Assembly (NCBI GenBank): GCA_015039365.1
Contig: WION01000061.1
Span: forward strand, 62,001 to 126,000
Length of the DNA stretch: 64,000 bases
Source: Amanita rubescens
Taxonomy: Eukaryota > Basidiomycota > Agaricomycetes > Agaricales > Amanitaceae
Direction of reading: 5' to 3'
Position numbers and translations under genes: made by a program
Part shown: positions 3,629 to 59,771 of the stretch, piece by piece
Numbering within the stretch: position 1 is the stretch's first letter
Layout: each line of letters begins with the position of its first letter
The notes under the pieces: generated by a model
Database searches by the model: none
Told to the model about the DNA's origin: nothing
Seen by the model: only the letters and a program-made list of their open reading frames with translations

Positions 3629-3728
3629 TCAAAACGATACCCGAGTATTACCTCGTTGGTGAAACACAAGATAACTATCGAACTTCCGGAGAACCGGCCC
3701 GTAGGTTACCGGTCAGCTTGCAACAATT

Positions 3729-9412: not shown

Positions 9413-9451
9413 ACGAGCAAAGATCACACCTACAACATCCAGAAACTACCT

Positions 9452-11213: not shown

Positions 11214-11741
11214 TGTTACAAACACGGTACGGACTCCTACATTATGATTACATGACACGTCGGACATGCTTACTTTTTCGTATATGCCTACCCCTCGCTC
11301 AATCCCCATTATGTTCACCACATACGGACTACCTCATTTCCTTATCGATCCCCATTCCGTTTACCCTATGCCCAATCCCTTGCTCATACGTGTACCATCC
11401 CCTGTGCCCCCTGTTTTACCTATACTTGCTATCGCCCTTGTTCTACTTACGATACGGCTGTGTTTCTGTACATGTATATAAACCGATGTACTGTAACGTC
11501 GAACCTTAAGTTTGACTTATTCGTTCAATTCATTTCTTGTCAATATCATCTCATCTCACCTCGAAAGAACGTCGTTTCTACTCCGTTCATTATCGCTCTC
11601 AAGGATAAGACTTCTTCTAGTCGTCTTATCACTTAGCTTATTCGTTCACCTATTGTTTGACTTGTCCGTTGGACTTAGTCTACTTTGTCGAGCGCTCATA
11701 GCGTGGATACATTGTAGGTGGAGATTGACGTGATCATAGCA
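11214..11741 (+). repeat. 3' LTR of chromovirus element 1
   Basis: 528 bp, matching the 5' LTR, followed by the target duplication CATTA at 11742-11746 and then in-frame NLR coding sequence. Confidence 0.95.
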
Positions 11742-12365
11742 CATTATTCAAGGGGGCATCAAACTATGGGAAATCTACATATGGAACATGGGAGATTTCA
11801 ATGAAGGAACTTGAATCTAGGGCTACCAGAGGATCAGGACAAGAAAGACTCATAGCTCAAAGTGCAATTATTCTTTTCAAATGCTTTGCATTTTTACATC
11901 ATGACAACATATCAGAGGACATATTCAGGACTGCTGCTGAGAACTACTACAAAAGGGATATTAAGCAGGAAAAGAGCTTGGGATTGCCACTATTGGTAGA
12001 CTTATTAGATTCTAAAACACTGTTCCTTAATGAAGCAGGTCAATGGGATAGCCTGACATTCCATGACAGTATCCGACTCTTGCTCTCATTCTCAATTATT
12101 AAAGGCAGCAATAAAATATATTCCATTCACCCATTGATACATACCTGGAGCAGAGACAGGATAAACAGGGCTGATGTGTCTGGAATTTATTATATGGCAA
12201 TTGCCCTGCTATCAAGTTCAATACATGCAAATATATGTGATGATGACTATCTTTTTTGCATGGAAATTGTTCCACATATCAGAGCAAGTCAAAAATATGC
12301 ATCTGATCTGAAGCTTGAGGTAATAAACTTTGATGATGAATGTCAAAATTTTGGATCTGCATTTC

Positions 12366-14420: not shown

Positions 14421-14671
14421 TGAGCATTGGTGGGAAGAACAACAAGGCTTGGAGTTGGCCATTAAAGAATCTGATTTGACTTGGATGAAACCCGAGAGAC
14501 AAAGCAGAAATATGATGAGATTTGTGATAGTCAAATTGTATGCCCAGTATCCAGAGTACATGCGTCTCATTGCATTTATAAGTAGTGAGAAATAGTTGAT
14601 TTTATCATCAGTGATCAAAGAGAAGACATGAACAGTGTGATCATGAGCTGCACATGTTATTCGACTCAGTG

Positions 14672-15962: not shown

Positions 15963-18900
15963 CTATGTATAAATAAATCTGAGCTCAATGCAAAGGCTAT
16001 ACAGCCAATAGATCACCTGAATATCATGCTGGGTGTTTCAGATAAGTGATTCACAAGTAGTCCATGACTAGACAAAGTACCTACCATCAATGTGAGTCAC
16101 CTGCCAGTAGAGTAATGTGATCAAATCTTGATGATCAGAGTGCATAAAGTCAGGAGTAACATCAGTCTTCAGCTTCTGAACATAGCCTTTTTGCTTGAAT
16201 TGATCAAAGGCTTCTGTGACTGATTGCAAAAATGGTTTATTGATCCAAAAGGATAGCCTCTTGGCAATGATAATAATTGCTTGAAACTTTAAGCAAACAT
16301 ACAGTAAATGAAAAGGAACAGTTTACCAGCTAAGGCCTGACAATCACTTGGCTTATTGTAACACCATCAGTTGTGTACTACCCAAAGGAAAGAACAAAAT
16401 ACCTTGACATGAAAGTTGCTTTGGATGTCTCCAAACATGGAGAAAAGTTCATACTGGTTTATGAGATAGAGTAAAACAACATATCATCAGACCTACACAC
16501 TATCATGCAAACTGATATGAACATCAATGCCTCATGAACAAGCATCACTCACCTGGAAATTGAGGAAAGTGATATAAGTGAAAGAAGTGATCACATGAGG
16601 TGGGACTGGGTCAGCTGAAATGAAATCTTACAATCTATGATAATGGTGTATAAGGAAGATATGGAAAAGATATGGCAACATGCTTACTTTCTGGTATACA
16701 TAAGACAATCATGAATTGAAGTATACTGAGAGTGCAGGTCAGACAATTTGCGATGTCACTCACTTGCTGTTGGTGAAAGGAAAAAGATGTAATGAGATTG
16801 CTTTTCACAAAATGTGCAATGTCACCCACTCGCTTTTGATGATGTAATGAGACTGACTTTCACAAAATGTGCAATGTCACTCACATTCTGTTAGTGATAG
16901 GAAAATACTATGTGAGACTGGGGCTTTCACAAAATGTGCAATGTTGCTCACAATCTGTTGGTGATAGGGATGTGATGAGACTGCCTTTGAAAAATGTGAA
17001 TTGTCACTCACAAGCTGTTGGCCATAGGAAAAGATGTGATGAGACTGCCATTCACAAAATGTTCAATGTCACTCACTGGCTGTTGGTCATAGAAAAAGAT
17101 GTGATGAGACTACAGTTCACAAAATGTGCAACTTGAATGTCACTCACCAGCTGTTGGTAACAGGAAAAGAGGTGATGAACTGCCATTGACAAAATGTGGA
17201 ATGACACTCACTCACTGTTGGTGATAGGAAAAGATGTGATGAGACTGCTTTTCACAAAATGTGCATCACTTACTTGCTGTTGGTGATGGGAAAAGATGTG
17301 ATGAGACTGCCTTTCATGGAATGTGGAATGTCACTTACTCGCTGTTGGTAATAGGAAAAGATGTGATGAAACCAGTGCCTTTGACAAAATGTTCAATGTC
17401 ACTCACTTGCTGTTGGTCATAGAAAGGATGTGATGAGACTGCCTTTCACAAAATATGTAATGTTGCACACTTCCTGTTGGCCATAGGGAAAGATGTGATG
17501 AGATTGCCTTTCATGGGTGTGCAATGTCACTCACAAACTGTTGGTAATGGGAAAAGATGTGACAAGACTGCCTTTCACAAAATGTGGATTGTCACTTACA
17601 ACCTGTTGGTCATAGGAAGAGAAGTGATGAGACTGTCTTTCACAAAATGTGCAATGTCACTCACTTTCTGTTGATCATAAGAAAGTTGTGATGAGACAGC
17701 CTTTCACAAAATGTGTAATGTCACTCACATCCTGATAATGATAAGAAAAGATGTGATGAGACTGCCTTTGCAAAATGTGGATTATCACTCACTTTCTGTT
17801 TGTGACAGGAAAAGATGTGATGAGACTGCCTTTGACAAAATGTGCAATGTCACTCACTCGCTGTTGGAAATAGGAAAAGATGTGATGATACTGCATTTCA
17901 CAAAGTGTCCAATGTCACTCACTTCCTGTTGGTAACAGGGAAAGATGTGACAAGACTGCATTTCACAAAATGTGCAATGTCACTCACATACTGTTGGTGA
18001 TAGGAAAAGATGTGATGAGATTGTGGTTCACAAAATGTACAATGTCACTGACAAACTGTTGGTCATAGGAAGAGATATGATAAGACTGCCTGTCACAAAA
18101 TGTGTAATGCCACCTACATCCTGTTGGTAACAGCAAAAGATGTGATGAGACTGCCTTCCACAAAAATCTTCAAGCTCACATCCTGTTAGTGATAAGGGAA
18201 ATACATAGAACAGTTGCTCAGAAATATTTGCAATGTTACTCACATACTGTTGGCCATAGGCAAAATTTTGACAGGGTCATCTTCTTAATCATTAAACTAG
18301 CATGACATGCTGCCAACCTGCTATATTATAGGAAAACGTGAGATTTACACTGCTTTTCACAATACTTGCAACACCACTCACAATCTGTAGAACAACAAAT
18401 GTGTACAACTTGTCCTGTAGCAGAGTGGCTAGCATCACTCACTTCCTTTGGAAAGGAATTAGCATCATGAGTTGGGACAAAGAAAACAATGTGACTGACT
18501 CTCTTTTGCCATAGTATTTCATATGATGATGAATCATATCTCACAAAAGGATCACATACATCCTGTTTGTTTTGCCATAGTTTGTGACTTTGTCAAGACT
18601 CAGCTTTGGAAAGAAGAAATATTTACTGTCTGTTGTTTTGAGACAAGATGTAATGATTATAAGCAGACAGAAAGGAAAAGTCACTTACTTCCTGTTATTA
18701 ATGCAAAGAACTTTGTTGAGACTGTCTTTCAGATAATAGTATGTCACCAACTTTCTGTTGTTCATTGAGTTATGTTTGATAAGCTGCACAAACATCAATG
18801 TTGCTTACTTTCTTTAAGCAGGTCAAGTGTGGTGTGAAGCAGTGTTATATTACTCACTCCCTCAGCTGTCCATGAGAAGCTGGATTGACAAGTTTGCTTG

Positions 18901-20853
18901 CAATGATAGATTAACTCACTTGCTATTGGTCATATGATGCACAATGAGATCATTTACAAAAAATCAAAATTGAGTCATGTCACTCACTTCCTGTAGATTA
19001 TGGGACAAGTAGGGACAAGATTCCTGATCACAAAAGGAAGCATTTCTCACAAACTGTTGTCATGAAACGACATGTGGGATCTATGCTAGTTCAATGTCAC
19101 TTACCCACTGATATTAATGTCTTCCAAGTCAGATTCTGCCAGCAAGAAGGTGACAACTCACCTGTGTTTCACTCAGTTGTTCATTGGCCATCTGAAACAT
19201 GATTAACCTTGTTCTCATGTGAGGGCATTTGAGTGTTACTTACCTTGATGATCTGTTACAAGTATTTACATATCATTCCATATAAGGCCACCTACCTCCC
19301 TGTCCACCTATTCCCATTTAACCTTTCCAATGCTAATGTGCAGTTTGAAGAAAATGCATACCCAGAGATGTGGAAATTTTGAAAAAACTATGAGAATGAC
19401 ATCATCCCATGTCCAATGTTTATGTTTCAGAACATGTCTAAACAATGTTGATGTTAGTAAGTGACATGTTGAATGTGACCCTCACTGAAGTGCAGATTTA
19501 ACACAAAGGTCAAGATTATTCATCTGTGTTGAAACAAACAGCTGATGTATGCTGCCATCATCTATTGCATCAGCAGTTTGCTGACTTAATTCAGCACAAT
19601 TCTTCTCTGGTAAATCCATGTCTAGGAACAAGTTAACAACATTACACCAATTTTTCATGAAGAAATAAACCCTCATCACTCTCACCTTCCAATCGCACAT
19701 ATGCCTTGGGAGGATATTTGGTATCCAAAACTTTAGGAAGATAAACTTTCTGAAAAGTGATTTCAGCAATTTCACTGGCTCTCTCCCACTTATCTTCATC
19801 CTTTGCATCAGGCAAGTTGACAAATTCAGTGGCTATTTGACCATCAAATTTAGTGAATATAACCACCAAAGCAACTGTAAAGGAAATATTTACTAGTCAG
19901 TACAAGTAGATTTTGTGGCAAGTTGGCCAATGGAAAGGAGGTAACAGTAGTTAAGGGTAAACAATCTCTCCAAAACCAACAGGTTACAAGATGAGATATG
20001 AATTCATTAGGACTCACCTCTGCCTGTCCCTTTATTGAAGAATTCAAGTTCTGCAGGTAGAATGGGACGAGGGCTGTCCATGGGTATACAGTACCTACAG
20101 GATGCCAGGTCAGACAGTACTGTAAAGAGATAAAGCAAGATACCAAATTGCATGCAACTGATTCTTCAGCTCAGTTTCTGCAGACTTCTTTTCAATGAAC
20201 TTCCAGGCAATCTCCAATTCCTCAGTTGAGCCAGATTCAAAACCCTGTGAGTCATGGAAGACAAAGTTACTTCCAGGGTATGTAATTTGATGCCAAATAT
20301 CATGCAGGCCTCTCTGTTATCATTGCATCTGAATGGGTACATCCCTGCACCATTATCTGACTCACCCCAAGTAATGGCATCAAATGAATCACAGACTGTT
20401 CAAGCTGATTCCCTGCAAGAAACTCACAGTCAAAGGAAGCACAAAACTCAGAGTGATTTACCATCTTTATCATATATAATAGGCTTTGTCCCCTTTGCTA
20501 TGCCACAAACCTTCTCAAGGATGGTTGTCTTGCCTGCATTAGCCCTCCCAATGACAAGGATGCGAAAGTGTGGGCATAGATAGTGTTCCCTGAGGATTTG
20601 AACATGTGTCTCATCAGGATCTGATAAGTGTCAGTTAAGGATTAGCAATCCTGAAACACATACTCAAAGAAGGTGCAGCAGTTGTAGCTGCCATGACTGA
20701 TGTTGTGCTAGGAGCATGAGTTTGTGTGTGAGCTGCCTTACTTGCCAAATCCTGCTTAAATTTCTGGGCTAACTTTCCCAGCATTGAGAATTTGAGCCAA
20801 TAACATTTTTTTTCCCAGACATTTTTGGGACCAGCTATACAATGAGGTTGCAA
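15963..20853 (-). CDS. G-domain GTPase-like protein with a long single-codon exon array
   Basis: Proposed exons, minus strand: 20853-20664, 20620-20462 (P-loop GRANAGKTT), 20412-20366, 20313-20144 (FHDSQGFESG, the G3 region), 20094-20018, 19874-19686 (FTKFDGQI, the G4 TKxD motif), 19621-19486 (LFVSTQMNN), 19437-19362, then 19307-19296 (12 nt), 19252-19244 (9 nt), 19191-19162 (30 nt), 39 exons of 3 nt (19107 to 16688), 16614-16553, 16453-16403, 16286-16101, and 16016-15963 ending in TAG. The N-terminal half matches basidiomycete P-loop GTPases of unknown role, likely cytoplasmic signalling proteins. From 19362 onward nearly every junction falls in phase 0. Two points are unresolved: one microexon (17212-17214) reads TGA, and the 62-nt exon at 16614 needs one extra upstream base to stay in frame. 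Either a unit is skipped or spliced differently, or this copy is damaged. Confidence 0.75.
16688..19107 (-). other. Array of 39 three-nucleotide exons in the GTPase gene
   Basis: On the minus strand every 49-76 bp shows AG, three bases, then GTGAGT/GTAAGT. The core unit is about 65 bp (62-nt intron, ending TATCACCAACAG or similar, branch-like CTCAT). Codons by lowest coordinate, in gene order: TGG 19105; TTT 19051; GAA 18988; CAA 18920; GGA 18858; AAA 18809; AAA 18752; GAA 18689; ACA 18627; GAT 18560; AGA 18500; GAA 18443; ATT 18382; CAG 18318; TAT 18244; GAT 18180; GAT 18118; TTT 18053; TAT 17988; GAA 17923; CGA 17858; AAA 17793; GAT 17729; AAA 17665; GTT 17600; TTT 17535; GAA 17471; CAA 17407; CGA 17339; CAA 17274; TGA 17212; CTG 17148; CCA 17077; CTT 17012; ATT 16952; AAT 16885; CGA 16830; CAA 16764; AAA 16688. 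Introns in the core are similar but not identical; those near 18.3-19.1 kb are much more diverged. Confidence 0.82.
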
Positions 20854-29557: not shown

Positions 29558-32500
29558 GTGCATCACGCGCCGCAAGAGCATCCAACCGCAAGCGACACGC
29601 ATGAGATCGCGATGATCTCAACCGCTCTCCGCAACTTTAAAGAGCCCACAAAGGATGAACTTACCCACATTTACTTCTCTATACCTCCATCAACAATCGC
29701 GGATTCTACTTCCAATGATATCGACAAGATGGACATCAACGCGGTCTTGACGCTGGGAGACGCAGAGGAAGAATCATACGTGAGTTATCCCCTCGATAAC
29801 GACTTTTGCTCACCGTACGATTCGAATAGGCGGGGAAACTTTACCTCATGCCGCCCTACCTCTCGTTTGCATCGTTGGATCGCAAATCCGTTCGGTTCAC
29901 AATACCCCTGGCAACCGTTCGTCGCGTTGAACGATTGAACGCCAGAGCAGGAATATATGCGCTCAGCGTATCAACATGGCACGGTCCACGACTCGTACGT
30001 AGCCCATCCATCACGGAACTAAATTATAACTTGAACCAAACTTTCAAGGTCGTTCAACTGACGTCTTTACGCCCAACCGCGGACGCGTTTTGCACCATAC
30101 TTCGGGATGCACTGAAAATCGAGCTGCAAAAGGGTCAGATGAAGGCCGTCAAGACGTTTGTCAAGACATGTTATTCGGAGGCTCTTATATCCACCTCGTC
30201 CAACGTTGCTGATAATGAACGAGAAGATGGTAGTCTAATCAGCGAAGAGACAGATGGTGCGCCTGCTAGAGAGCATCTATACCACGGCGGACTGGGTCTT
30301 CGCTTCAAGTTTCCTGGTGATCCTAAAAAGTCTGTAGACTATCTCAACAGGAGATGTTTTTTCACTAACCTCGAATTAGACTGAGGGAGGCATCAAAGAT
30401 CAAGCTATGGACTACATACTTGAAAAGTACAGTCTCGTTTATCGTTAAATTCTGCTATTTCACGAGTTTTTTAGCTCACGGCCGGAACCTGGCTTTATTG
30501 CGTTATCCTCAATGTACAAGGCTAGTTCAAGTCGGACTTCCAAACAGACTACGTGGAGAAATATGGGAAACGCTTTCTGGATCCATTTTCCTCCGTTTCA
30601 CGAATCCTGGCTACTACGAACGGCTACTAGAGGAACACAAGGGCAAAACTAGTACAAGCACAGAAGATATCGAGAAGGATTTACACAGAAGTCTACCCGA
30701 ATATGCCGGCTACCAGTCTGAGGAAGGCATAGGCGCACTCCGCCGAGTGCTGCAAGCGTATTCGTTCAAAAACCCGGAACTTGGGTACTGCCAGGTCGGT
30801 TCCTCCCCTTTTTGCGAAACCATGAACTAACTTGATATATAGGCGATGAACATACTTGCAGCGGCGATTCTAATGTAGGGTCTTCCCCTTTTGTCCCATT
30901 TGATTTCGTTTATCAAACGCGATTGGCAGTTATATGTCGGAAGAGCAGGCATTTTGGCTTCTGGAAGTGCTATGCGATAGATTACTACCAGGATACTACT
31001 CGTACGTCGCCTTCTCTCCGTTTTCTTCATTACTAATGATATATGCTCTACAGGCCATCGATGCATGGGACGCTCCTCGATCAACGCGTCTTCGAAGCTC
31101 TGGTAGCCAGATGTCTTCCTATGATCCACACTCATTTCGAAACGGTTGACGTACAACTATCGGTCGCATCGCTTCCCTGGTTCCTCAGTTTGTACGTGAA
31201 ATTTCACTCATTTCGCGATCAGGAGCTGACAGAGGTCTCAGATATATCAACAGTATGCCTATGGTCTTCGCGTTCCGGATAGTGGACTGCTTCTTCTGCA
31301 TGGGGCCCAAGGTTTTGTTCCAAGTAGGGTATGTAAACCTTTTTTATGTTGAATTCTTCGTATTAATGATTTTTTGATAGATTAGGTCTGACTTCCAGCC
31401 TCGATGATGATATCGTGACTTACGATGGAACATATTATAGCTATTCTCAAGATCAATGGGGAGAAGCTACTACAAGTTCAGGATGACGGCGGTTTCCTCA
31501 AGTACGTACTGGAATCCTTTCGATGATCATACCACTCATGTTGCCGTCCAGTGTGATGAGGGAATACTTCGCCTCCCTTGACCAATCAGCCCATCCAAGC
31601 TCAAGTGACCCCCGTTCGCGTGCCATCACGCGCTTCCAAGAACTCCTTCTCATATCCTTTCGAGAGTTTTCCGTCATTACAGAGGAAATGATCCTCTCGG
31701 AACGGAAACGTTTCCGAAACGAGATCATCCACAATATCGAAGCCTTCTCTAAGCGTGCTGCGGTTCGGAACCTCAAGACTCTCGGTAGATTCAGCAAGGA
31801 ACAAGCGGGGCTTATTTACGATGCCTTGTATAAGGCGATGTGTATTGAGCCGGTGCCACCTGCGACTGCGCCACCGCCGTCGTTGTTCACGACCAACGAT
31901 GGTCATGAGGAGAAGCCTGAGACGAGGATCGGATTGCGGACGTTCCGCCACTTTTTGAGTGAGATTGCGACGTGGGCTCGAGATGAGAAGATCGTTATGA
32001 ATGGTTTGACGGTGAGTTCCCGTTTTGTCACGAAAAATCTTTTCTGATTTTGTTCGTTCGATAGCGGCGTGTGGATCGTGAGGTCGCTGAACATGAGTTT
32101 ATCGACCGGTTGTTCTACTTCTGGGATACGTCGTGTCGGGGTGCGTTGTCGTTCCAGGTAGGCGGAAGTTTTACTCGTTGCGACCCTCCTTTCTGATTTG
32201 TGCCTGATGATTGCAGGATCTTGTATCGGGCTTGGATGGTGTCATGTTCAATGACTTGATGGAGAACATTGAATGGTTCCTCAACCTCCATGACAAGAAC
32301 AAGGACGGGTATCTTACCAAAGATGAAGTGCTGACATTGTCCGAGTCGCTGCTGGTGCGTGGACGTTTTTCGTTTCCTGCTAATTCATTTATAAACAAGT
32401 TTTTTTTAGTTCATTTTCCGATTCGAAGTTGGCGATGCTTACTTGGGCGCCGTTAGCAGATTCATGAGCAACGCATTTGAATATGGTGACACACTTCTTC

Positions 32501-38638: not shown

Positions 38639-41600
38639 ATGTCTAGCGCCGGAAACATCAATATCTCCGGCAGCCAGTTCACCGACATTGGGGGTGATCA
38701 GATCAATAATTATGACCAGAGCCAGTTCAACTTGAATCAAATTAACATGCCAGTGCATTATGGGAGCACTCGTGCGCTGTTTGCTTCCTACTCGTAGCTA
38801 CCGGGTCGTGACCACATAGATACAGGGACTGTCTTTGATATCTTGAAGGACTCGAATCAAATTGCTATTCACGCCGCCTATAATTCTGCAGAACGCGAGT
38901 CAGAACATGCATCAACCTGTCAAGAGGGTACTCGCGAAAGGGTTTTGTCGAAGCTCATGCGGTGGTCCAAAGCTAGTGATGGATACCCAGTGTGTTGGCT
39001 CGAGGGACCTGCCGGCTCAGGGAAGTCGACAATCTTGCATACCATCGCGAAGCAATGTGACGATGAGGGGCGGCTCGCATTCAGCTTTTTCTTTTCAAGA
39101 GGCAAAGCCGATCGCAGCGATACGGTTAAAGTCATCCCCACATTTGCGTATCAGCTTGCTCGATCCCTTCCCGCAATTCAATCACCTTTGCTGCATGTGC
39201 TCACAAAGAGTAATCCATTCGCTCCTTTTCTCCGCTTGCACGATCAGCTCGAAAATCTCATCATTGATCCCACTCTTAGCATTCAGCAGACCACCCTGCC
39301 CATGGTTGTCATTATTGATGGCCTTGATGAATGTAGTGACGAGAATCTCCTACCGCAGCTCATTCATGCACTTGTCGATGTGACCTATTACCTTCCATTC
39401 CGATTTCTCTTTGCAAGTCGGCCTGAATCTCATATCCGACAAACATTTCAATCCTCTTTGATCAAACCAAAGACATATGTCCTCTCACTCCGAGACTTTC
39501 AGGCTCATCATGATGTTGGCAACTACTTGAAACAGCATCTTACAGAAATACACAGGCAAAATTACAACATCATGCAAAAAGTACCACATCCTTGGCCATC
39601 AGCAGAACAGCTTGTTGCTCTTGTCCAGAAATCAGAGGGTTTATTCATCTATGTGTCAACCCTGGTCAAATTTGTGGGTGATAGGCAAGGGCTTCCCCAG
39701 GAGAAGCTTGAGTTAGCTATAACAGCACATCATGGTGTTGATCCTCTATATGAGCAGGTTTTATCAAAAGCTCAAGCTGAGTCTGCTCACTTTTCCAGTG
39801 TAGTGGGTACCATCATATATCTCCACCACCCTCTTGCCATACATGATCTGGAGCAACTTCTACAGCTATCATCTGACCATATTCGACAAGCATTACAGGG
39901 TTGCCAATCTATTTTTGTCCTTCCCAACAGTGAAGAGGAATCAGTTCACCCATATCATGCATCATTGAAAGATTTTCTTAGTGATATGAACAGAGCAAAG
40001 GTTCATTTTTTTGACCCCAAGATGTACCATGTTACCATTCTGGTCAACTGCTTGCAGTTGATTGGGCAGGTGCATGACTCAAACAATGGTGTTCAGCCTC
40101 TGAAATATGCATGTCAACAATGGTATTATCACTTCTCTTCAGCACTTTCATATCAGGCAACAATTGATTTGATGAAGAACTGTGGAAACATAGAGGTATT
40201 GATGGTGAAGTTGAGCAGAGAGTGGTTAAAAACTTGGATGTATGGGCTGGAAGATGGATTAAAGACTTTTTGTCAAGGTTGTGATTCTGTTCTTAAACAA
40301 TTACAGGCAAGTTGTATTTAAACCACTATTGGAATATGTGCTCAAGCTTGTCAATCAAGCCACTGCAAAGAGAGTGGAAAGTTGTTACAGAGAGTATGAA
40401 TCAAATATTGGAGATTTCTAAGGTGAATAATCCCTTATGAAACATAATAGAAGGAAAATAACTTTGTTACTCTGCTTAGAATGTATGTAGCTTGATATAA
40501 CATTGTGGCTCAAGTTGACTATCTTGTGCCTGAATAAATATCAGCTGGTGTGTATTTTGTCAATTTTTCTATAGCAAAGCAGCATTTCTCAAGCAATTAT
40601 CTCTAGAATGTAAGCAAGTTGAATTTGTTCATATAATTGTCAAAATCTATTAATAATTGCTGTTCTAGAATGTAATATTTGTGCAAAATCAAAAACCAAA
40701 TATATTGCTAACTGATATTTTGTATCTCATTACTGTATCATTAGAAAGTAAGTTGCTTTGTTTTACATGTTTGATAACTAGTAGATGGTGGTATTGATCA
40801 CAAAATGTCTTAGTTTGTAAGTGGTACTTTCAAACATGAACATAATATTCTGATTATCACTTTGTGGCAACAATCTGTGTACAGCAACTTGTAAGTGATT
40901 CAGGTTGACATGTGCAGAACCTCTTGGTGATGATTTTGTGGCATCTGGCTGTGTTCAGTATGTAAGTGATTCAGGTTGACATGTGCAGAACCTCTTGGTG
41001 ATGATTTTGTGGCATCTGGCTGTGTTCAGTTTGTAAGTGATTCAGGTTGACATGTGCAGAACCTCTTGGTGATGATTTTGTGGCATCTGGCTGTGTTCAG
41101 AGAGTAAGTGATTCAGGTTGACATGTGCAGAACCTCTTGGTGATGATTTTGTGGCATCTGGCTGTGTTCAGACAGTAAGTGATTCAGGTTGACATGTGCA
41201 GAACCTCTTGGTGATGATTTTGTGGCATCTGGCTGTGTTCAGGGTGTAAGTGATTCAGGTTGACATGTGCGGAACCTCTTGGTGATGATTTTGTGGCATC
41301 TGGCTGTGTTCAGTTTGTAAGTGATTCAGGTTGACATGTGCAGAACCTCTTGGTGATGATTTTGTGGCATCTGGCTGTGTTCAGACAGTAAGTGATTCAG
41401 GTTGACATGTGCAGAACCTCTTGGTGATGATTTTGTGGCATCTGGCTGTGTTCAGTATGTAAGTGATTCAGGTTGACATGTGCAGAACCTCTTGGTGATG
41501 ATTTTGTGGCATCTGGCTGTGTTCAGGCTGTAAGTGATTCAGGTTGACATGTGCAGAACCTCTTGGTGATGAATTTGTGGCATCTGGCTGTGTTCAGGGT

Positions 41601-43188
41601 GTAAGTGATTCAGGTTGACATGTGCAGAACCTCTTGGTGATGAATTTGTGGCATCTGGCTGTGTTCAGTATGTAAGTGATTCAGGTTGACATGTGCAGAA
41701 CCTCTTGGTGATGAATTTGTGGCATCTGGCTGTGTTCAGTATGTAAGTGATTCAGGTTGACATGTGCAGAACCTCTTGGTGATGATTTTGTGGCATCTGG
41801 CTGTGTTCAGTATGTAAGTGATTCAGGTTGACATGCACAGAACCTCTTGGTGATGATTTTGTGGCATCTGGCTGTGTTCAGAGAGTAAGTGATTCAGGTT
41901 GACATGTGCAGAACCTCTTGGTGATGAATTTGTGGCATCTGGCTGTGTTCAGGATGTAAGTGATTCAGGTTGACATGTGCAGAACCTCTTGGTGATGATT
42001 TTGTGGCATCTGGCTGTGTTCAGTATGTAAGTGATTCAGGTTGACATGTGCAGAACCTCTTGGTGATGATTTTGTGGCATCTGGCTGTGTTCAGAGAGTA
42101 AGTGATTCAGGTTGACATGTGCAGAACCTCTTGGTGATGATTTTGTGGCATCTGGCTGTGTTCAGACAGTAAGTGATTCAGGTTGACATGTGCAGAACCT
42201 CTTGGTGATGATTTTGTGGCATCTGGCTGTGTTCAGACAGTAAGTCAATTAGCTTGACATTGTGCAGAACCTCTTGGTGATGATTTTGTGGCATCTGGCT
42301 GTGTTCAGACAGTAAGTCAATTAGCTTGACATTGTGCAGAACCTCTTGGTGATGATTTTGTGGCTGTGTTCAGTTTGTAAGTCATTCAGCTTGATATGTG
42401 CAGAATCTCTTCAAAAGTGATAATTTTGTGACCCTTTGCTGGTACTTAGTTTGTAAGTTGTTTTCTTAGACTCAAAAAAAAACATTTTAATCATACATAT
42501 TTGTATATAGAATGTATGTCACTTTTTATTTGTTGGGACATTTGCTAATGTCCCTCTTCTCATAAATCAGAATGTATGTACTTTTGTTCATTCCTTTACA
42601 CCTGTGCTTCAGCACTCAAAATTTGTAGTGGGCATGTTACTTTTTTACATTTACATTCAAATTATGCTAACATTGTTTATTAATGTTATCAGAAGGTTAG
42701 TGGATTTTTTAACTAATTTAAATTCAAATCTTTACTCTTTCTCTTGTCAGGAGGTATATGTAATACATCTTTTCTATCTCTGATTTGTATGCTAACTCTA
42801 CTATTGTCTACTAAACTTAGTTGGTATGTTTCTTTACTGTTTTATGCTTAATAACTGAATTAATGTTATTTTTTGACTTCATTTTCAGATTGTATGGTTC
42901 TTCATCTGCAGTGCAGTGCAGAACTTTCTCATCTTTTTTCCTTTAGGATGTCAGTTTGTTACTCCTCATTTCAATTTTTATTGATGCAAAATTCAAATTG
43001 GGAATTTGCTAGCATGTATGTATCCTCTTTGTTCTATACATAGCATACTAACATTTATCAATTACTTGTCTTTGAAGTACTTTGGTGCTGTTTTTAATTC
43101 TTCTATCTGTTTCCTGTTGTCATTAAAATATTCTACAGACAATTTTGTGCAACATTCCAAGTTGGATTGCACTCCCCCTCTCACCTAA
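38639..43188 (+). CDS. NACHT NTPase (NLR-type) with a C-terminal single-codon exon array
   Basis: Exon 1 (38639-38771) encodes the fungal STAND N-terminal motif ISGSQFTDIGGDQINNY. Intron 38772-38819. Exon 2 (38820-40306) holds the NACHT domain: Walker A GPAGSGKST, Walker B VVIIDGLDEC, a sensor-like FLFASRPESHI, then a helical region to LKQLQ. Exon 2 ends CAG followed by GCAAGT, a GC-type donor, exactly at a codon boundary. About 40 exons of 3 nt (one of 6 nt) follow between 40391 and 43015, then a last exon from 43078 (YFGAVF...) to TAA 43186-43188, open in the same phase. The expected product is about 615 aa, roughly 40 residues of which come from single-codon exons. NACHT proteins are nucleotide-switched receptors for heterokaryon or non-self recognition (family knowledge); usually the C-terminus carries repeats, a place taken here by the array. 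Confidence 0.82.
40391..43077 (+). other. Array of about 40 three-nucleotide exons in the NACHT gene
   Basis: Each exon lies between AG and GTAAGT/GTATGT. Codons by first base: AGA 40391; AAT 40480; CTG 40545; AAT 40617; AAT 40679; AAA 40745; TTT 40814; CAA+CTT 40885; TAT 40959; TTT 41030; AGA 41101; ACA 41172; GGT 41243; TTT 41314; ACA 41385; TAT 41456; GCT 41527; GGT 41598; TAT 41669; TAT 41740; TAT 41811; AGA 41882; GAT 41953; TAT 42024; AGA 42095; ACA 42166; ACA 42237; ACA 42309; TTT 42374; TTT 42450; AAT 42511; AAT 42571; TGG 42629 (then a GC donor, less sure); AAG 42693; GAG 42751; TTG 42821; ATT 42889; GAT 42947; CAT 43013. No stop occurs in the phase set by the NACHT exon. Introns outside the satellite are unrelated in sequence yet keep 55-86 nt length and often a clear branch site (GCTAAC about 42665 and 42791, ACTAAC about 43048). 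Confidence 0.85.
40891..42239 (+). repeat. 71-bp satellite: 68-nt intron plus one variable codon, 19 units
   Basis: Nineteen perfectly phased 71-bp units start GTAAGTGATTCAGG and end GCTGTGTTCAG plus three bases. Only a few bases vary in the 68-nt part (GATTTTG/GAATTTG, one GCGGAACC, one GCACAG), while the last three bases take seven forms (TAT, TTT, AGA, ACA, GGT, GCT, GAT). Two or three diverged units (introns of 69, 62 and 73 nt) continue to 42449. Confidence 0.95.
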
Positions 43189-47219: not shown

Positions 47220-49973
47220 TGTTCTCCATCAAGTCATTGAACATGACACCATCCAAGCCCGATACAAGATCCTGCAGTCATCAGGCAACAAATCAGAAAG
47301 AAGAACCACAACGAGTAAAACTTCCGCCTACCTGGAACGACAACGCACCCCGACATGACGTATCCCAAAAGTAGAACAACCGGTCGATAAACTCATGTTC
47401 AGCGACCTCACGATCCACGCGCCGCTATCGAACGAGCAAAACGTCAGAAAAGATTCTTCATGACAAAACGGGAACTCACCGTCAAACCATTCATAACGAT
47501 CTTCTCATCTCGAGCCCACGTCGCAATCTCACTCAAAAAGTGACGGAACGTCCGCAATCCGATCCTCGTCTCAGGCTTCTCCTCATGACCATCATTGGTC
47601 ATGAACAACGACGGTGGTGGCGCAGTCGCAGGTGGCGCCGGCTCAATACACATCGCCTTATACAAGGCATCGTAAATGAGTCCCGCTTGTTCCTTGCTGA
47701 ATCTACCGAGAGTCTTGAGGTTCCGAACCGCAGCACGCTTAGAGAAGGCTTCGATATTGTGGATTATCTCGTTTCGGAAACGTTTCCGTTCCGAGAGGAT
47801 CATTTCCTCTGTAATAACGGAAAACTCTCGGAAGGATATGAGAAGGAGTTCTTGGAAGCGCGTGATGGCACGCGAACGGGGGTCACTTGAGCTTGGATGG
47901 GCTGATTGGTCAAGGGAGGCAAAGTATTCCCTCATCACACTGAACGGCAACGTGAGTGGTATGATCATCAAAAGGGTTTTAGTACGCACTTGAGGAAACC
48001 GCCGTCATCCTGAACTTGTAGTAGCTTCTCCCCATTGATCTTGAGAATAGCTATAATATGTTCCATCGTAAGTCACGATATCATCATCGAGGCTGGAAGT
48101 CAGACCTAATCTATCAAAAAGTCATTAATACGAAGAATTCAACATAAAAAAGGTTTACATACCCTACTTGGAATAAAACCTTTGGCCCCATACAGAAGAA
48201 ACAGTCCACTATCCGGAACGCGAAGACCATAGGCATACTGTTGATATATCTGAGACCTCTGTCAGCTCCCGATCGCGAAACGAGTGAAATTTCACGTACA
48301 AACTGAGGAACCAGGGAAGCGATGCGACCGATAGTTGCACGTCAACCGTTTCGAAATGAGTGTGGATCATAGGAAGACATCTGGCTACCAGAGCTTCGAA
48401 GACGCGTTGATCGAGGAGCGTCCCGTGCATCGATGGCCTGTAGAGCATATATATATCATTAGTAATGAAGAAAATGGAGAGATGGCAACGTACGAGTAGT
48501 ATCCTGGTAGTAATCTATCGCATAGCACTTCCAGAAGCCAAAATGCCTGCTCTTCCGACATATAACTGCCAATCGCGTTTGATAAACGACTCAAGGGGGA
48601 CAAAAAAGGGGAAGACCCTACATTAGGATCGCCGCTGCAAGTATGTTCATCGCCTATATATCAAGTTAGCACATGGTTTCGCGAAAAGGGGAGAAACCAA
48701 CCTGGCAGTACCCAAGTTCCGGGTTCTTGAACGAATACGCTTGTAGCACTCGGTGGAGCGCGCCTATGCCTTCCTCAGACTGGTAACCGGCATATTCGGG
48801 TAGACTTCTGTGTAAATCCTTCTCGATATCTTCTGTGCTTGTACTAGTTTTACCCTTGTGTTCTTCTAGTAGCCGTTCGTAATAGCCAGGGTTCGTGAAA
48901 CGAAGGAAAATGGATCCAGAAAGCGTTTCCCATATTTCTCCACGTAGTCTGTTTGGAAGCCCGACTTGAACTAGCCTTGTACATTGAGGATAACGCAACA
49001 AAGCCAAGTTCCGGCCGTGAGCTAAAAAACTCGTGAAATAGCAGAATTTAATGATAAATGAGACTGTACTTTTCAAATATGTAGTCCATAGCTTGATCTT
49101 TGATGCTTCCCTCAGCCTAGTTCGAGGTTAGTGAAAAAAACATCTCCTGTTGAGATAGTCTACAGACTTTTTAGGATCACCAGGAAACTTGAAGCGAAGA
49201 CCCAGTCCGCCGTGGTATAGATGCTCTCTAGCAGGTGCACCATCCGTCTCTTCGCTAATTAGACTACCATCTTCTCGTTCATTATCTGCAACGTTGGACG
49301 AGGTGGATATAAGAGCCTCTGAATAACACGTCTTGACAAACGTCTTGACGGCCTTCATCTGACCCTTTTGTAGCTCGATTTTCAGCGCATCCCGAAATAT
49401 GGTGCAAAACGCGTCCGCGGTTGGGCGTAAAGACGTCAGTTGAACGACCTTGAAAGTTCGGTTCAAGTTATAATGTAGTTCCGTGATGGATGGGCTACGT
49501 ACGAGTCGTGGACCGTGCCAGGTTGATACGCTGAGCGCATATATGCCCGCTCTGGCGTTCAACCGTTCAACGCGACGAACGGTTGCGAGGGGTATTGTGA
49601 ACCGGACGGATTTGCGATCCAACGATGCAAACGAGAGGTAGGGCGGCATGAGGTAAAGCTTCCCCGCCTATTCGAATCGTACGGTGAGCAAAAGCCGTTA
49701 TCGAAGCGCTGATAACTCACGTATGATTCTTCCTCTGCGTCTCCCAACGTCAAGACCGCGTTGATGTCCATCTTGTCGATATCATTGGAAGTAGAATCCG
49801 CGATTGTTGATGGAGGTAAATGTGGGTAAGTTCATCCTTTGTGGGCTCTTTAAAGTTGCGGAGAGCGGTTGAGATCATCGCGATCTCATGCGTGTCGCTT
49901 GCGGTTGGATGCTCTTGCGGCGCGTGATGAACTGTTGCCTTTTTTGGAATGGGCGCGTCTCTCACTTTCTGTC
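47177..49973 (-). pseudogene. TBC-domain gene, copy B, 3'-truncated
   Basis: It is an inverted duplicate of 29540-32310 with very high identity, including introns. GRAM remnant, arginine finger (GLPNRLRGEIWE) and glutamine finger (ELGYCQ) are kept. It breaks off inside the EF-hand, where copy A continues DGYLTKDE and copy B reads into the zinc-finger gene at about 47177. It lacks the EF-hand end and acidic tail. The 5' side is separated from its flank by the LINE at 49974-52930. Confidence 0.88.
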
Positions 49974-54343: not shown

Positions 54344-54440
54344 TCAATAAGCCTGAACATCGATTCATTGGCATTTGATAACACACACTTCGACGAACTT
54401 CCGGAAAGCCAGCCCGTAGGTTACTGGCCACGTTGTCAAA

Positions 54441-56162
54441 ACGGATTGGAGAGCTCCACCAAATAGAGCTACACGAGATCGTAAAGGGAACTACGTTCTT
54501 GACGGATACTACGTCAGACTAAACGGTGCAAAACGAATCTGGGAAGATACAGGAGGGAATCCAGTAAAAGAACAAGAATTCTGGATACCACAAAAAGAAA
54601 CTAGACCTCCGAACGAATCATACTATTACTTCGCAGATCTATATCTTCAGGAACAACACATCAGATTCGATCACCTCACAGAACGTTGGATAGCATCCGA
54701 GACACAAGACTTTGTCCCTAACGAATACTTCAACACCCCTAATTGGATAAAAGGGACTGTTGATGCTCTACCAGAAAACTTAAGACCGAAAACTCTCCTT
54801 TCCATACAGACAACTACAAAAGGCAAAAAGAAAGCAAATTTTGGCCTAAACAATAGTGAATCCGAGAAAGAAGAAGAAACAGATCAAAAACCCGATCTAT
54901 CTCTTGATTTTCTCAGTGACCTTTCAGTTGGAACGACACCAACACCTGCCCAACAACCGACCAATCCCGAACCAGGTCCTTCGAACCCTAAAGAAGAAAA
55001 GGACGAAGAAGACCCATTTGACTCTGACAGAATCGAAGTAGACGAACTTAAACCCGATCCAACTCCACCACGCAGAGATCCATCACCCCCACCATCACCA
55101 AGAATGTCTGGAGGAAGTACAGACCCTATACCCAACCCACGAACCCCTAGTCTCATCGGAGATCTCCCTGAATTTAAAGGGAAGCGAAAGGATGCCAATA
55201 CGTTCATAGAAGATATCGAAATCTTCTTTGACATGAATCCTGAACGGATGAATACAGACCGTTTAAAGATCCTTGCTGCCCTGAACAAGATCTCAGATGG
55301 AGCTAGACAGTGGAAAAAGAATAAATTAGCGGAATTACGAAAATCACGCGCTACCGTTGAAGGAGGCGTCACAAGACCCGCTTTATTCGATGACTGGGAA
55401 GCATTTAAACTGTCATTCTTGACAGATTGGGGAGAAGTTGATCCAAGTGGAAATGCATACACGAAAATTCTCAATCTACAAAACAGATCGTCCATGAAAG
55501 GAAAGAAACAGATGACCTTGCCTAATTACGTCAATCAGTTCAAGGAACAAATCACGAAAGCAGGAATCGAAGGAGAAGCAGCATTCCATATGTTCGGAAA
55601 AGGACTTACAGCACCCGAGTTCGAAAAAGCAATGCTCATGAACCCAAAAACACTACAAGATTGGTACGACATTGCTATCAAACTCGACAATATCCGAACC
55701 CGTTCATACGCTTATTCCCCTCGATCTGGAAATGGTCATTCATCATCCTCTCATAACGACGAATCATGGGCTATGCAGATCGATCATAAATTTCTAGAAC
55801 AAGAAGAAGACCCAGAACTAGAACTTATGATCAGATCTATGTCCAAAGAAGAAAGAGAACGCTACATCAAAGACGGTTTATGTTTTATCTGCGGAATCAA
55901 AGGACACATGTCAGGGCAATGCCCGAAAAAGAAAAGAAACAAAGGGAAAGGCCGATTTAAAGGAGGGAGGAAAAGAGGATTCACGCCCAAACGTCACATT
56001 CGAGCCACATCAAATGATGGTGACGGAAATTGGGAAGAAGAAGAAGTCCGAGAGTCTAAACCAAATTACACCAAGAACATCCGAGCGCTGATGAAAGGGA
56101 TGTCAACCGACGAAAAGAATGATCTATTACTATCTCTTGCCGATGATAACGAGGATTTTTGA
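54441..56162 (+). CDS. Gag of chromovirus element 2
   Basis: The frame is open from at least 54441 (ACG GAT TGG) to TGA 56160-56162. Residues PPNRAT and EFWIP align with the element 1 N-terminus, well before the first AUG at 55104, so translation must begin upstream of that AUG at a near-cognate codon or after splicing. A gag capsid-like region (FKGKRKDANTFIEDIEIFF) is followed by one CCHC knuckle (CFICGIKGHMSGQC) and a basic stretch. The end GAT TTT TGA overlaps the pol frame exactly as in element 1. Confidence 0.88.
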   Translation, partial: TDWRAPPNRATRDRKGNYVLDGYYVRLNGAKRIWEDTGGNPVKEQEFWIPQKETRPPNESYYYFADLYLQEQHIRFDHLTERWIASETQDFVPNEYFNTPNWIKGTVDALPENLRPKTLLSIQTTTKGKKKANFGLNNSESEKEEETDQKPDLSLDFLSDLSVGTTPTPAQQPTNPEPGPSNPKEEKDEEDPFDSDRIEVDELKPDPTPPRRDPSPPPSPRMSGGSTDPIPNPRTPSLIGDLPEFKGKRKDANTFIEDIEIFFDMNPERMNTDRLKILAALNKISDGARQWKKNKLAELRKSRATVEGGVTRPALFDDWEAFKLSFLTDWGEVDPSGNAYTKILNLQNRSSMKGKKQMTLPNYVNQFKEQITKAGIEGEAAFHMFGKGLTAPEFEKAMLMNPKTLQDWYDIAIKLDNIRTRSYAYSPRSGNGHSSSSHNDESWAMQIDHKFLEQEEDPELELMIRSMSKEERERYIKDGLCFICGIKGHMSGQCPKKKRNKGKGRFKGGRKRGFTPKRHIRATSNDGDGNWEEEEVRESKPNYTKNIRALMKGMSTDEKNDLLLSLADDNEDF

Positions 56163-59100
56163 CAGTGGGACTCATGACAGTGGATGAAGTCTCAGACACA
56201 CCAGATTCAACTCTCGATATATCTCATGTAACAGTACAATCTATTTCGAAACGAAGATTATCTGTCCCTATCAAAGTTGAAACTGAAAACAACACTGAAA
56301 ACCTCGTTGCCCTCGTCGACTGCGGAGCCGAAGGGGTATTTATCGACAAAAGGATAGCACACAAATGGAGAAAACGAAAAACTCCACGACCAATTAGAGT
56401 TTATAACGTCGATGGCACCATAAACAAAGAAGGAGAAATTGATGAACAATGTCTAATCACCTTCGAAATGAACGGAAAACGCATGACTGAATGGTTTTAC
56501 GTATCAGCAATAGGAAAACAAACGGTTATACTGGGGCTTCCTTGGTTAGAGAAGCATAACCCTGACGTAAATTGGAGAGAAAAGACTCTAGAGTTCCGAG
56601 ACTCTGAACAGGACAAAATCAAGGCATCACTTCGGAGTATCTGTCAACAGATTGACAGAATAGCTATGCCTGAATGGGAAGAAGATCTCGTCATCGGATA
56701 TTTGATGTCACACAAAGGATCACAGACGACAGATCACGGATGGAACACGCATACATTTGAGGATATAGGAAGCTGGTCAGAAGACGAATACGACCAAGTA
56801 ACTATTGCACGATATACACCAGCTCAACAAATGGAACACAAATACCATCAAACAGAGGAGGTTTACACGCTCCCTCCTGAATACTCGGCATGGAAAGATG
56901 TATTCGAGAAAAAAGCAAGTGAACGATTCCCAGAAAGCCGATCTTGGGATCACCAGATAGAACTTCGCGATGATTTCATACCAAAAAGAGGAAAAATCTA
57001 TCCCTTATCTCCGAAACAGCAGAATACACTGGATGAATGGATTAAAGAACACGTCGAAAAAGGCTACATCAGACCGTCGAAATCACCGCAGGCATCACCT
57101 TTCTTCTTTGTAGAAAAGAAAGAAGCACAAAAATTACGACCCTGCCAAGATTATCGATATTTGAACGAATATACTAAACCAAACGCATATCCACTACCTC
57201 TTATCTCCGATCTTATGATCAAACTCAAAGATTCGGAATACTTTACAAAATTGGATATCCGATGGGGATATAATAACGTTCAAATCAAGGAATCTGACAG
57301 ATGGAAAGCCGCCTTTATCACCAATCGAGGTTTATTTGAACCTAACGTCATGTTCTTTGGATTACGAAATTCACCAGCAACGTTTCAAGCTATGATGGAC
57401 GATTATTTCAGGGATTTTACAGAAAAAGGATGGCTTGTCATCTACATGGATGACATGCTAATACACGCGCGCACTAAAGAAGAACTCGAGATTCGAACAA
57501 AACAAGTACTTGAACGATTACAGAAACACGATCTTTACCTCAAGCTTGAAAAGTGTAAATTCGCTGCCAAAGAAGTTGATTTTCTAGGCACCGTCATATC
57601 CAAAAATACAATAAAAATGGACCCGATCAAACTTGCCGGAATCAGGGACTGGCCAACCCCTTCTACCGTTAAACAAGTTAGATCCTTTTTAGGATTCGGA
57701 AATTACTATCGAAGGTTTATTTTCGGATTCGCCCACCTTGCACGACCCCTGCACGACTTAACAAAGAAAAACAAATTATGGACATGGACCGCAGAATGCC
57801 AAGTCGCATTTGATCTATTAAAAGAACGCTTCACATCCGCACCCGTCTTAATGATGCCCGATGTTAACAAACCTTTCATTCTACAAACGGACGCATCAGA
57901 CCGCGCTATCGGAGCAGTTCTTATGCAGAAAGATGACAATGGCGACTTACACCCATGCGGATACCTATCCCACGCTTTAACACCGACTGAAACACGATGG
58001 CAAATCTACGACCGAGAGTTATTCGCCATTTACTACGCTCTTTACAACGAATGGAGATACCTGCTTGAAGGAGCAGAACACCCTGTCATTATTCATTGCG
58101 ACCACAAGAACCTACTCTACTATCGAGAACCACAACGTCTTACGAACCGCCAAGCACGATGGTGGAACGACTTGTCTCGATTTAATATTAAACTAACCCA
58201 CGTTCCCGGAGCAAAACTAATAATAGCGGATGCACTATCCCGCCGACCCGATCATATGACAAAAGACGAACCAGAAGAGTTAATAACGATGCTCCCAAAA
58301 GAACTCTTTGTTCGCACGATCGCCGAAGACCTCCGTGACAGAGCAATAGAAATAACTGTCAAAGATGAATTCGCTCAATCAATCAAGAAATGCCTAAAAG
58401 AAAAAGGAACACCGCCTTTACGAACAGCCCTTTCTGATTGGACCCTCGACAACGAATTAATCCTATACAAAGGGAAATCTTTTATCCCTCCTGACACCGA
58501 TCTTCGCCGAGATATTATTAGAGATTTTCATGAATCACCAACAAGCGGACACCCCGGTTTCTTCAAAACACTAGCCTTATTAAAGGAATATTACTGGTGG
58601 CCATTAATGTCCAAAATGGTTAAACAGTTTATTGACGGATGCACGGCATGTCAACAAATGAAATCAAATACTCACCCTACCGCCGCACCCCTGATGCCAA
58701 TCAAGTCTCACGCACACCGACCCTTCCAACAAATAACCATGGATTTCATAACCGACTTACCCATAAGTGACGGTTTTGATTCTATCTTTATCGTGGTCGA
58801 TCAAGGACTTACAAAGGGAGTAATTCTCATGCCTTGTAACAAAACTATCACCGCCGACGAAACCGCCGACCTCTACATTCGGAATGTATTCAAAAACTTC
58901 GGTTTACCCGACGTCATGATCTCCGATCGAGGACCACAGTTCGCATCACATGTCTTTAACGGCATAATGGACTCATTAAAGATCAAACACAAAATGAGTA
59001 CCGCCTTCCATCCACAGACTGATGGACAAACGGAGCGATATAACGCCGAATTAGAAGCTTATCTCCGAATATTCTGTGCCTATGAACCAGATACTTGGAA

Positions 59101-59770
59101 CAAGATGATACCAATAGCACAATTCGCGCATAATTCACGCACTCATGAAGCGTTGAAACAATCACCCTTTCAATTGATGTATGGAACATCCCCGGTTGCA
59201 CTTCCCCTTGTCTCAAATAAGACAAATACACCAACCGCCGATAACCGCATCAACTCTCTGTTCCGCGCACGAGAAGAAGCACTCGCCGCACATGATCTAG
59301 CACGAGCTAAGATGATGGAAAGAACAACGAGAAAGACTAAACCGTTCAAAGTCAATGACAAAGTATGGTTAGAGTCCAGGAACCTGAAGATTCCTTATCA
59401 GAGCAGAAAGCTCGCACCTAAACGAGAAGGTCCCTTTTCCATCAAAGAAGTCTTAGGACCAGTGACATATCGTCTCACGCTACCAAGACAATGGAAAATT
59501 CATAACGTATTCCACGCCGCCTTACTAACGCCGTTCAAAGAAACTTCCTTTCACGGAATAACAGAAACAAGGCCCCCTCCCGATCTGATCGAAGGAGAAA
59601 AAGAATACGAAGTAGAAGCACTGCTTGCACATCGCAAGTTCAGAGGAAAATTACAATTCCTAGTAAAGTGGAAAGGCTATGACACCAGCGAAAACACATG
59701 GGAACCAGAAAATAACTTGACGCATATGGAAGACCTCCTTCTAGAATATAAAAGACGAAGGAAACTCTGA
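56159..59770 (+). CDS. Pol of chromovirus element 2
   Basis: A 1203-codon polyprotein frame with no interruption. Protease DCGAEG lies near residue 54, reverse transcriptase YMDD near 427, RNase H QTDASDRAIGAVL near 576, an integrase HHCC zinc domain at 790-833 (GHPGFF, CTACQQ), the DDE core with MDFITDLP (about 860) and SDRGPQ (about 921), and a chromodomain at about 1150-1187 (FLVKWKGYD, NTWEPE). The first codon is TTG overlapping the gag stop (minus-one frame relative to gag), so expression probably uses frameshifting or reinitiation. The enzymes copy the RNA and insert the cDNA; the chromodomain directs insertion to marked chromatin (family knowledge). Confidence 0.95.
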   Translation: MTVGLMTVDEVSDTPDSTLDISHVTVQSISKRRLSVPIKVETENNTENLVALVDCGAEGVFIDKRIAHKWRKRKTPRPIRVYNVDGTINKEGEIDEQCLITFEMNGKRMTEWFYVSAIGKQTVILGLPWLEKHNPDVNWREKTLEFRDSEQDKIKASLRSICQQIDRIAMPEWEEDLVIGYLMSHKGSQTTDHGWNTHTFEDIGSWSEDEYDQVTIARYTPAQQMEHKYHQTEEVYTLPPEYSAWKDVFEKKASERFPESRSWDHQIELRDDFIPKRGKIYPLSPKQQNTLDEWIKEHVEKGYIRPSKSPQASPFFFVEKKEAQKLRPCQDYRYLNEYTKPNAYPLPLISDLMIKLKDSEYFTKLDIRWGYNNVQIKESDRWKAAFITNRGLFEPNVMFFGLRNSPATFQAMMDDYFRDFTEKGWLVIYMDDMLIHARTKEELEIRTKQVLERLQKHDLYLKLEKCKFAAKEVDFLGTVISKNTIKMDPIKLAGIRDWPTPSTVKQVRSFLGFGNYYRRFIFGFAHLARPLHDLTKKNKLWTWTAECQVAFDLLKERFTSAPVLMMPDVNKPFILQTDASDRAIGAVLMQKDDNGDLHPCGYLSHALTPTETRWQIYDRELFAIYYALYNEWRYLLEGAEHPVIIHCDHKNLLYYREPQRLTNRQARWWNDLSRFNIKLTHVPGAKLIIADALSRRPDHMTKDEPEELITMLPKELFVRTIAEDLRDRAIEITVKDEFAQSIKKCLKEKGTPPLRTALSDWTLDNELILYKGKSFIPPDTDLRRDIIRDFHESPTSGHPGFFKTLALLKEYYWWPLMSKMVKQFIDGCTACQQMKSNTHPTAAPLMPIKSHAHRPFQQITMDFITDLPISDGFDSIFIVVDQGLTKGVILMPCNKTITADETADLYIRNVFKNFGLPDVMISDRGPQFASHVFNGIMDSLKIKHKMSTAFHPQTDGQTERYNAELEAYLRIFCAYEPDTWNKMIPIAQFAHNSRTHEALKQSPFQLMYGTSPVALPLVSNKTNTPTADNRINSLFRAREEALAAHDLARAKMMERTTRKTKPFKVNDKVWLESRNLKIPYQSRKLAPKREGPFSIKEVLGPVTYRLTLPRQWKIHNVFHAALLTPFKETSFHGITETRPPPDLIEGEKEYEVEALLAHRKFRGKLQFLVKWKGYDTSENTWEPENNLTHMEDLLLEYKRRRKL

Positions 59771-59771
59771 A

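Follow-up and report, generated by a model that had tools for sequence, protein, structure and literature searches.

We describe a NACHT gene in a 64,000-nucleotide stretch of the genome of the basidiomycete Amanita rubescens (GenBank assembly GCA_015039365.1, contig WION01000061.1, positions 62,001 to 126,000 of the forward strand; hereafter the window, with coordinates counted from its first letter), and propose with high confidence that it makes a receptor with a C-terminal tail spliced from 39 small exons, the tails of its paralogues combining near-identical introns with differing codons. The proposal of an earlier note, made from the letters alone, that this tail is written in single-codon exons is now supported by the phase pattern of the NACHT gene, by its paralogues and by a second, GTPase family, one locus of which spells a contiguous protein; hence, on sequence grounds, these exons are very probably real, coding and spliced.

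The NACHT exon (38798..40306, + strand) is an open frame with Pfam matches of the NPHP3_N/NACHT type, both above the cut-off (PF24883, E 7.4e-26; PF05729, E 1.2e-12), and it thus contains the NTPase domain with a P-loop by which fungal NLRs (NACHT STAND receptors) are recognized. Upstream of it lies apparently just one short first exon, the N-terminus of the related protein P0001 being likewise short, and relatives align with the NACHT exon through ..WMYGLEDGL..QLQ. Of WD, ANK or TPR repeats there is no sign: Pfam matches no repeat family in this exon, and none is discernible by eye in the 40-codon tail or the 36-codon last exon. The NACHT exon ends on a codon boundary (CAG, followed by GCAAGT), as had been noted earlier, ahead of a GC-AG first intron of 84 nucleotides (nt) (40307..40390, +). 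The protein of the relative P0002 has V (GTN) in place of the A (GCA) read at this donor, from which a GT donor is probable there.

Downstream of this intron AG-NNN-GT recurs at intron-sized spacing, and the roughly 40 occurrences previously counted resolve into 39 small exons with 40 codons between 40391 and 43015; 38 of these exons are 3 nt long and one, CAACTT at 40885, is 6 nt, again as previously described. The introns between them measure 55-86 nt and the acceptors are CAG or TAG in 39/39. The head exons (40391..40890, +), single codons except the last, read AGA AAT CTG AAT AAT AAA TTT CAACTT (RNLNNKFQL) and lead into a tandem array with a period of 71 base pairs (bp) (40890..42411, +), whose 21.5 copies each comprise a 68-nt intron and one hypervariable codon; the array is a single tandem repeat and the triplet is its sole hypervariable part. 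The tail exons (42450..43015, +) are set among unrelated introns and read TTT AAT AAT TGG AAG GAG TTG ATT GAT CAT (FNNWKELIDH). The tail peptide as a whole is YFRTGFTYAGYYYRDYRTTTF, and it is continued by the last exon (43078..43188, +; acceptor AAG), which reads YFGAVFNSSICFLLSLKYSTDNFVQHSKLDCTPPLT up to a TAA stop. That this last exon is open in the same phase, and that no in-phase stop occurs among the codons, holds true in the full exon model. Nor is the pattern an artefact of one satellite: outside the repeat, the 1248 nt of flank contain 13 instances of the strict motif YAG-NNN-GTDNG, where 2000 dinucleotide shuffles give 0.26 on average and never more than 4; of the exon sizes from 0 to 12 nt tried on these flanks, 3 nt alone recurs (13 matches), with one match at 7 nt and none at the others. 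An alternative model, with an intron at 40240-40306 and a frame at 40307-40429 (open by eye), was rejected: relatives align through 40240-40306, and the paralogue L010 has a stop in the frame.

A search of the A. rubescens genome (75.7 megabases, 786 contigs) with the intron of the 71-bp unit gave at least 234 matches and eight candidate loci, all of which were scored: the window and seven others, that is, seven intact loci (the window and six paralogues) and the decayed L011. The 503-codon NACHT exon is intact in 7/8 loci, with 91-97% identity in the six intact paralogues, and is broken in L011. All seven intact loci start their tails with AGA AAT CTG AAT AAT AAA TTK (RNLNNK and the next residue) and finish them with the ten codons of the window (TTT through CAT, FNNWKELIDH), 0/30 exon columns of these tail exons being variable among the seven. 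The donor of the TGG exon in this set (at 42629 in the window) is GC in all intact loci but L010, where it is GT; in the window the exon was overlooked when only GT donors were read. Head codons differ among the intact paralogues as TTT/TTG, CAA/CAT and CAACTT/CAA, the last being an in-frame 3-nt indel seen in L010 and L012; the last exon has a 3-nt in-frame indel in L011, and several of its paralogue differences are silent third-base changes (counted by eye). Between these conserved ends the center of the tail is hypervariable in codons and copy number, as typified by YYHGHYYRYYYSDEFRYHGHDDDFSYDDFYTTF in L012 and RDYYYETRYETRYEEYYYEELYYRRYRYGYDRRTTF in L015. In 340 codons from the seven intact loci, a count that excludes three 4-nt units of L014, there are 0 stops in phase 0 versus 14 and 87 in the other phases.

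The contrast between introns and codons is sharpest within the arrays. A strict unit pattern, which fixes the start and end of the intron (15/68 intron positions), captured 165 units with 68-nt introns from the eight loci, with a diversity of 0.68/0.58/0.38 at the three exon bases against an intron mean of 0.014 (maximum 0.12); a loose pattern run as a check captured 178 units, with 0.67/0.59/0.37 against 0.021 (maximum 0.12) at the free intron positions, from which its intron diversity was taken. Letter-identical introns make up 117/165 of the strict set (118 in the loose one), and 11 different codons stand beside them in either set. No stop occurs among the codons of these units, against 15.4/159 (strict) or 16.1/174 (loose) expected if the three bases were independent. 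The NACHT loops are dominated by Tyr, Arg, Asp and Gly, residues in which antibody loops are also typically rich. Intron sites are variable at 28/68 positions, with minor alleles in at most 8/159 units, versus up to 52 for the minor alleles of codon bases (strict pattern). Since codon variants are common and intron variants rare, we infer that homogenising exchange goes on in the background while selection retains the codon variants.

Two other accounts of this pattern may be weighed here. Were the codon a mutational hot spot, served by a targeted mutagen at splice junctions with selection playing a minor part, one would understand both the three hypervariable bases beside almost invariant neighbors and the 117/165 identical introns; we regard this as unlikely, given that no stop occurs, against 15.4/159 expected, although a single base change in the commonest codons would produce one, that head and tail exons of the same layout vary little (5/57 columns), that the third base is the least variable, and that introns mutate too, yet their variants stay rare. 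The least probable account is that one mobile intron was copied between pre-existing codons, so that the codons are old and the introns alone new: identical introns flanking different codons would follow from it, but insertion at each codon boundary and hardly ever within a codon would be left unexplained, copy number varies between paralogues, and sister arrays in the GTPase family described below differ by whole units.

The second array of the window lies on the minus strand, where GTPase domain exons with the P-loop GRANAGKTT (19380..20620, -; outer bounds approximate, by eye) are followed by single-codon exons (16632..19107, -) composed of a head W F E Q G K K E T D R E I, a variable center with a 65-bp array and an end L I N R Q K I. 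Downstream are two conserved exons in phase 0, both delineated by eye: YELFSMFGDIQSNFHVK (16403..16453, -), which resembles PELFSVFGE of the relative P0166, and FQAIIIIAKRLSFWINKPFLQSVTEAFDQF.. (16101..16286, -), which resembles the C-termini of P0166 and P0175. The gene belongs to a large family, and its P-loop is almost invariant among 30 relatives, which marks a G domain; the Pfam MMR_HSR1 match is slightly under the cut-off. The 65-bp repeat differs in sequence from the NACHT 71-bp repeat, and the two arrays are unrelated. As a separate observation, AG|GT without an exon between is found by eye after the last Ile codon, both at 16555 (-) and at about 4700 in the related locus L026, as a candidate zero-length (recursive) splice site.

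A genome search with the GTPase-type intron gave at least 409 matches, and the best 40 of 233 candidates were scored. Eight contigs have several of the listed matches (C769, C604, C599, C254, C239, C228, C124 and C13), and each of them has, among the matches listed, a GTPase match 1.2-2.6 kilobases (kb) upstream on the same strand. In the five GTPase loci that were fetched, 96 identical introns flank 15 different codons. With a strict pattern (111 units) the exon-base diversity is 0.59/0.68/0.43 versus 0.005 in the introns, and with a loose pattern requiring C/T before the AG (120 units, still holding three matches shifted by 4 nt) it is 0.59/0.67/0.44 versus 0.04; before C/T was required, the initial loose pattern had caught 4-nt-shifted matches (13 TGA, intron diversity 0.14). 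The sister arrays L030 and L031 differ at 9/108 exon bases versus 2/1984 intron bases, plus two whole units. Stops in the recent GTPase arrays number 0 in phase 0 and 0 to 3 in the other phases, and so are not discriminating. The residues of these arrays are mostly Arg, Leu, Gly and Gln, unlike those of the NACHT loops. The array of L027 (C599) ends F L L Q V V V V and that of L032 (C13) is mostly Q and L, both unlike the Tyr-rich NACHT arrays.

It is in this family that codon exons can be set against a contiguous protein. Some GTPase relatives reside on JGI contigs of about 1.5 kb that are almost filled by their reading frames, and these continue beyond the point at which the annotated A. rubescens and A. 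brunnescens GTPase proteins read break off; because they are without introns, the contigs of P0175 and its kin are likely to be complementary DNA (cDNA). One relative, P0122, reads ..NEQLSETKWFEKGKKESDREIEYD, matching the head of the GTPase codon exons of the window, where MANEQLSETQ stands in one exon (by eye) and is followed by W F E Q G K K E T D R E I Q Y D in single codons. P0175 has 478 amino acids on a 1486-nt contig, and its nearest genomic locus, L026, spans more than 4.6 kb. A motif list of L026 drawn up blind to P0175 reads W F E S A D N A; gaps; Y Y; D G V H; and then G Y G Y Y G G E K I S E K E R D K R K D F V E R E I. With the gaps completed, for which sites were chosen by the expected residue as they were not in the blind list, 41/49 residues match P0175 in order, against a mean of 4.5 and a maximum of 16 in 100000 shuffled orders. 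Exactly 3 nt is the length of 48/49 L026 exons, their introns measure 50-68 nt, and 49/49 acceptors are CAG or TAG. Two further likely transcripts, P0166 and P0173, are near-identical for the most part and differ strongly in length and content in or near the codon-exon stretch; the pair may represent paralogues, alleles or isoforms.

In a structural model of P0175 (30 sequences; mean predicted local distance difference test score, pLDDT, of 75) the codon-exon stretch, residues 327-375, is predicted to form two helices (326-343 and 361-382) joined by a loop (344-360, DGIHSGGYGYYGGKKIS). For residues 316-358 pLDDT is <50, and the second helix alone is confident. Thus, the hypervariable GTPase part is a predicted flexible loop, and the NACHT tail has the same order as the GTPase stretch: conserved, variable, conserved. 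A Foldseek search with the model returned IRG and dynamin-like GTPases first (typified by Irga6 and IRGB10), with 33 PDB matches at E <= 0.001 and a best of 2.4e-5; the IRG chains compare with the model at template modelling scores (TM-scores) of 0.28-0.41 and identities of 9-14%, which offers a lead on possible kinship rather than membership.

These GTPase data also bear on whether the NACHT tail codes for protein at all. The protein could end at ..LQASCI*, the array then being a minisatellite within a long intron or untranslated region on the 3' side; precisely this end is seen in the annotated relative P0001, and the database is without a NACHT-tail protein, as this would lead one to expect. 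Even so, we consider a non-coding tail very improbable: the phase and stop pattern extends over seven loci, variation is restricted to codons, the same layout in the GTPase genes matches a contiguous protein, and those annotated A. rubescens GTPase proteins that were read stop short at, or close to, a corresponding point.

Several observations weigh against coding, spliced single-codon exons. The decayed L011 lacks units, carries 2 phase-0 stops and has a NACHT frame that is broken. In L014 (6801-7088) there are three consecutive 4-nt units, TAAT AGAT ATAT (12 nt), skipped by the pattern, which when joined keep the frame yet read TAA TAG. The exon columns of head and tail are as variable as the intron columns (5/57 versus 107/1075, p = 1); there being no overall difference, conservation of these parts was not taken as evidence. 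In the window GTPase gene, a TGA triplet at 17212..17214 (-) within the array would be an in-phase stop if that exon is used, and the GGA exon at 18860 has a GAG acceptor. One exon of L026 is 4 nt long, and the exon downstream of its array seems by eye to be one base out of phase. The status of P0175 as cDNA is likely rather than certain. Finally, a database search found no transcript or protein of the NACHT tail, only P0001, which covers 24% of the region, upstream of the tail.

Three further comparisons were made. Among the A. rubescens and A. brunnescens proteins read from the annotation, none shows the codon-exon peptide. A genome scan for a 27-mer of the spliced tail, allowing 3 mismatches at most, had 0 matches; as there is no processed copy, this retrocopy test gives no information on splicing. 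A likeness between the NACHT tail and Tricholoma matsutake C-termini (WKELI versus WRDVI) was discarded, since it rose above shuffles in 0/5 proteins (184 to 1445 of 2000 shuffles were as good).

If, as we hold, the single-codon exons are coding and spliced, their introns would be removed one after another, because two spliceosomes would hardly fit on a 3-nt exon simultaneously; stepwise removal of adjoining introns is what characterizes recursive splicing. The product would be a hypervariable loop flanked by two conserved segments. The near-identical introns may act as recombination spacers, with unequal exchange adding, dropping and shuffling codons one at a time; codon variants would be kept by selection for novel recognition specificities while intron variants stay rare. 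As nearly all exons are multiples of three, exon skipping would keep the frame and, by analogy with truffle genes, one gene could give many isoforms. It is conceivable, though not what we would favor, that combinatorial alternative splicing is the main role, each messenger RNA carrying another codon subset and each gene giving many tails, which is compatible with the mechanism just outlined. Nearly all exons being multiples of three in phase 0, most skips would be in frame; weak units (4-nt exons, the TGA, the GAG acceptor) would be tolerable if skipped; and the truffle nank genes, as portrayed in papers citing their description, provide a precedent. Conversely, P0175 has a residue for all 49 codons of the L026-type array, none being skipped.

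The earlier note knew of no receptor tail built from dozens of consecutive one-codon exons, an impression that the truffle corrects, as a system of this kind is already known, though little studied: the NACHT-ANK (nank) genes of Tuber melanosporum are reported to contain 3-bp mini-exons by the tens or dozens, which are alternatively spliced (Iotti et al. 2012, by way of PMC4986451, PMC9815663, PMC10197012 and PMC3689799). By these citing accounts, the two systems share NACHT receptors, dozens of codon-sized C-terminal exons and a proposed diversification of recognition, and the Amanita gene likewise has, at the sequence level, dozens of 3-bp exons in its C-terminal part. The truffle is an ascomycete, with ankyrin repeats and reported alternative splicing, whereas in the basidiomycete Amanita the NACHT exon is without an ankyrin match, the head and tail codons on either side of the array are conserved, the codons within it are hypervariable while its introns are near-identical, and the same layout recurs in a second, GTPase family. 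Our literature search, which did not extend to the original truffle paper, found no report of an Amanita or other basidiomycete case, of the GTPase family or of the pattern of identical introns and hypervariable codons. Hence, judged against these citing papers, codon-sized mini-exons in truffle NACHT-ANK genes are known already, and those three aspects appear to be new.

Other systems offer partial parallels. In the Podospora hnwd NLRs, hypervariable WD repeats are homogenised and shuffled with diversification limited to few codons (PMC4986451); both systems would thus confine diversity to few codons of homogenised internal repeats, but in Podospora the variable codons belong to a coded repeat scaffold, whereas the Amanita repeat is an intron and only its variable codon is coded. 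Recursive splicing, with its zero-length exons (PMC6224609), resembles the proposed stepwise removal of adjoining introns, with the difference that each Amanita step would leave a codon. Trichoderma Xlr2 contains a functional fungal microexon (PMC11121469), a single one and not an array. On balance, we lean slightly toward the view that Amanita possesses a genome-wide germline device with one codon as its unit, deployed on two unrelated protein families, a NACHT receptor and an IRG/dynamin-like GTPase, to make antibody-like hypervariable loops, those of the receptor being rich in Tyr, Gly, Asp and Arg; the device would be convergent with that of the truffle in another phylum.

If true, dozens of consecutive one-codon exons would be a workable mode of writing a protein in a mushroom, also outside NLRs, and these fungi could exchange the amino acids of a recognition surface one by one, as beads are swapped on a string. 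Spliceosome handling of 3-nt exons, codon shuffling versus diversification by splicing, and receptor tails missing from annotations would then all become testable. Moreover, identical introns between hypervariable codons are the opposite of the usual expectation and supply a simple signature for genome-wide searches.

The rest of the window holds further repeats. The highly similar 378-bp internal repeats of a TPR gene (11729-14423) are a further candidate for hypervariability. Reading frames at 29830-32047 (+) recur almost unchanged at 47444-49667 (-) as an inverted duplication (e.g., 29830-30384 + and 49128-49667 -), and the region is flanked by a pair of long retroelements whose frames resemble gag and pol (3705-11164 and 54420-61529; Ty3-type by eye).

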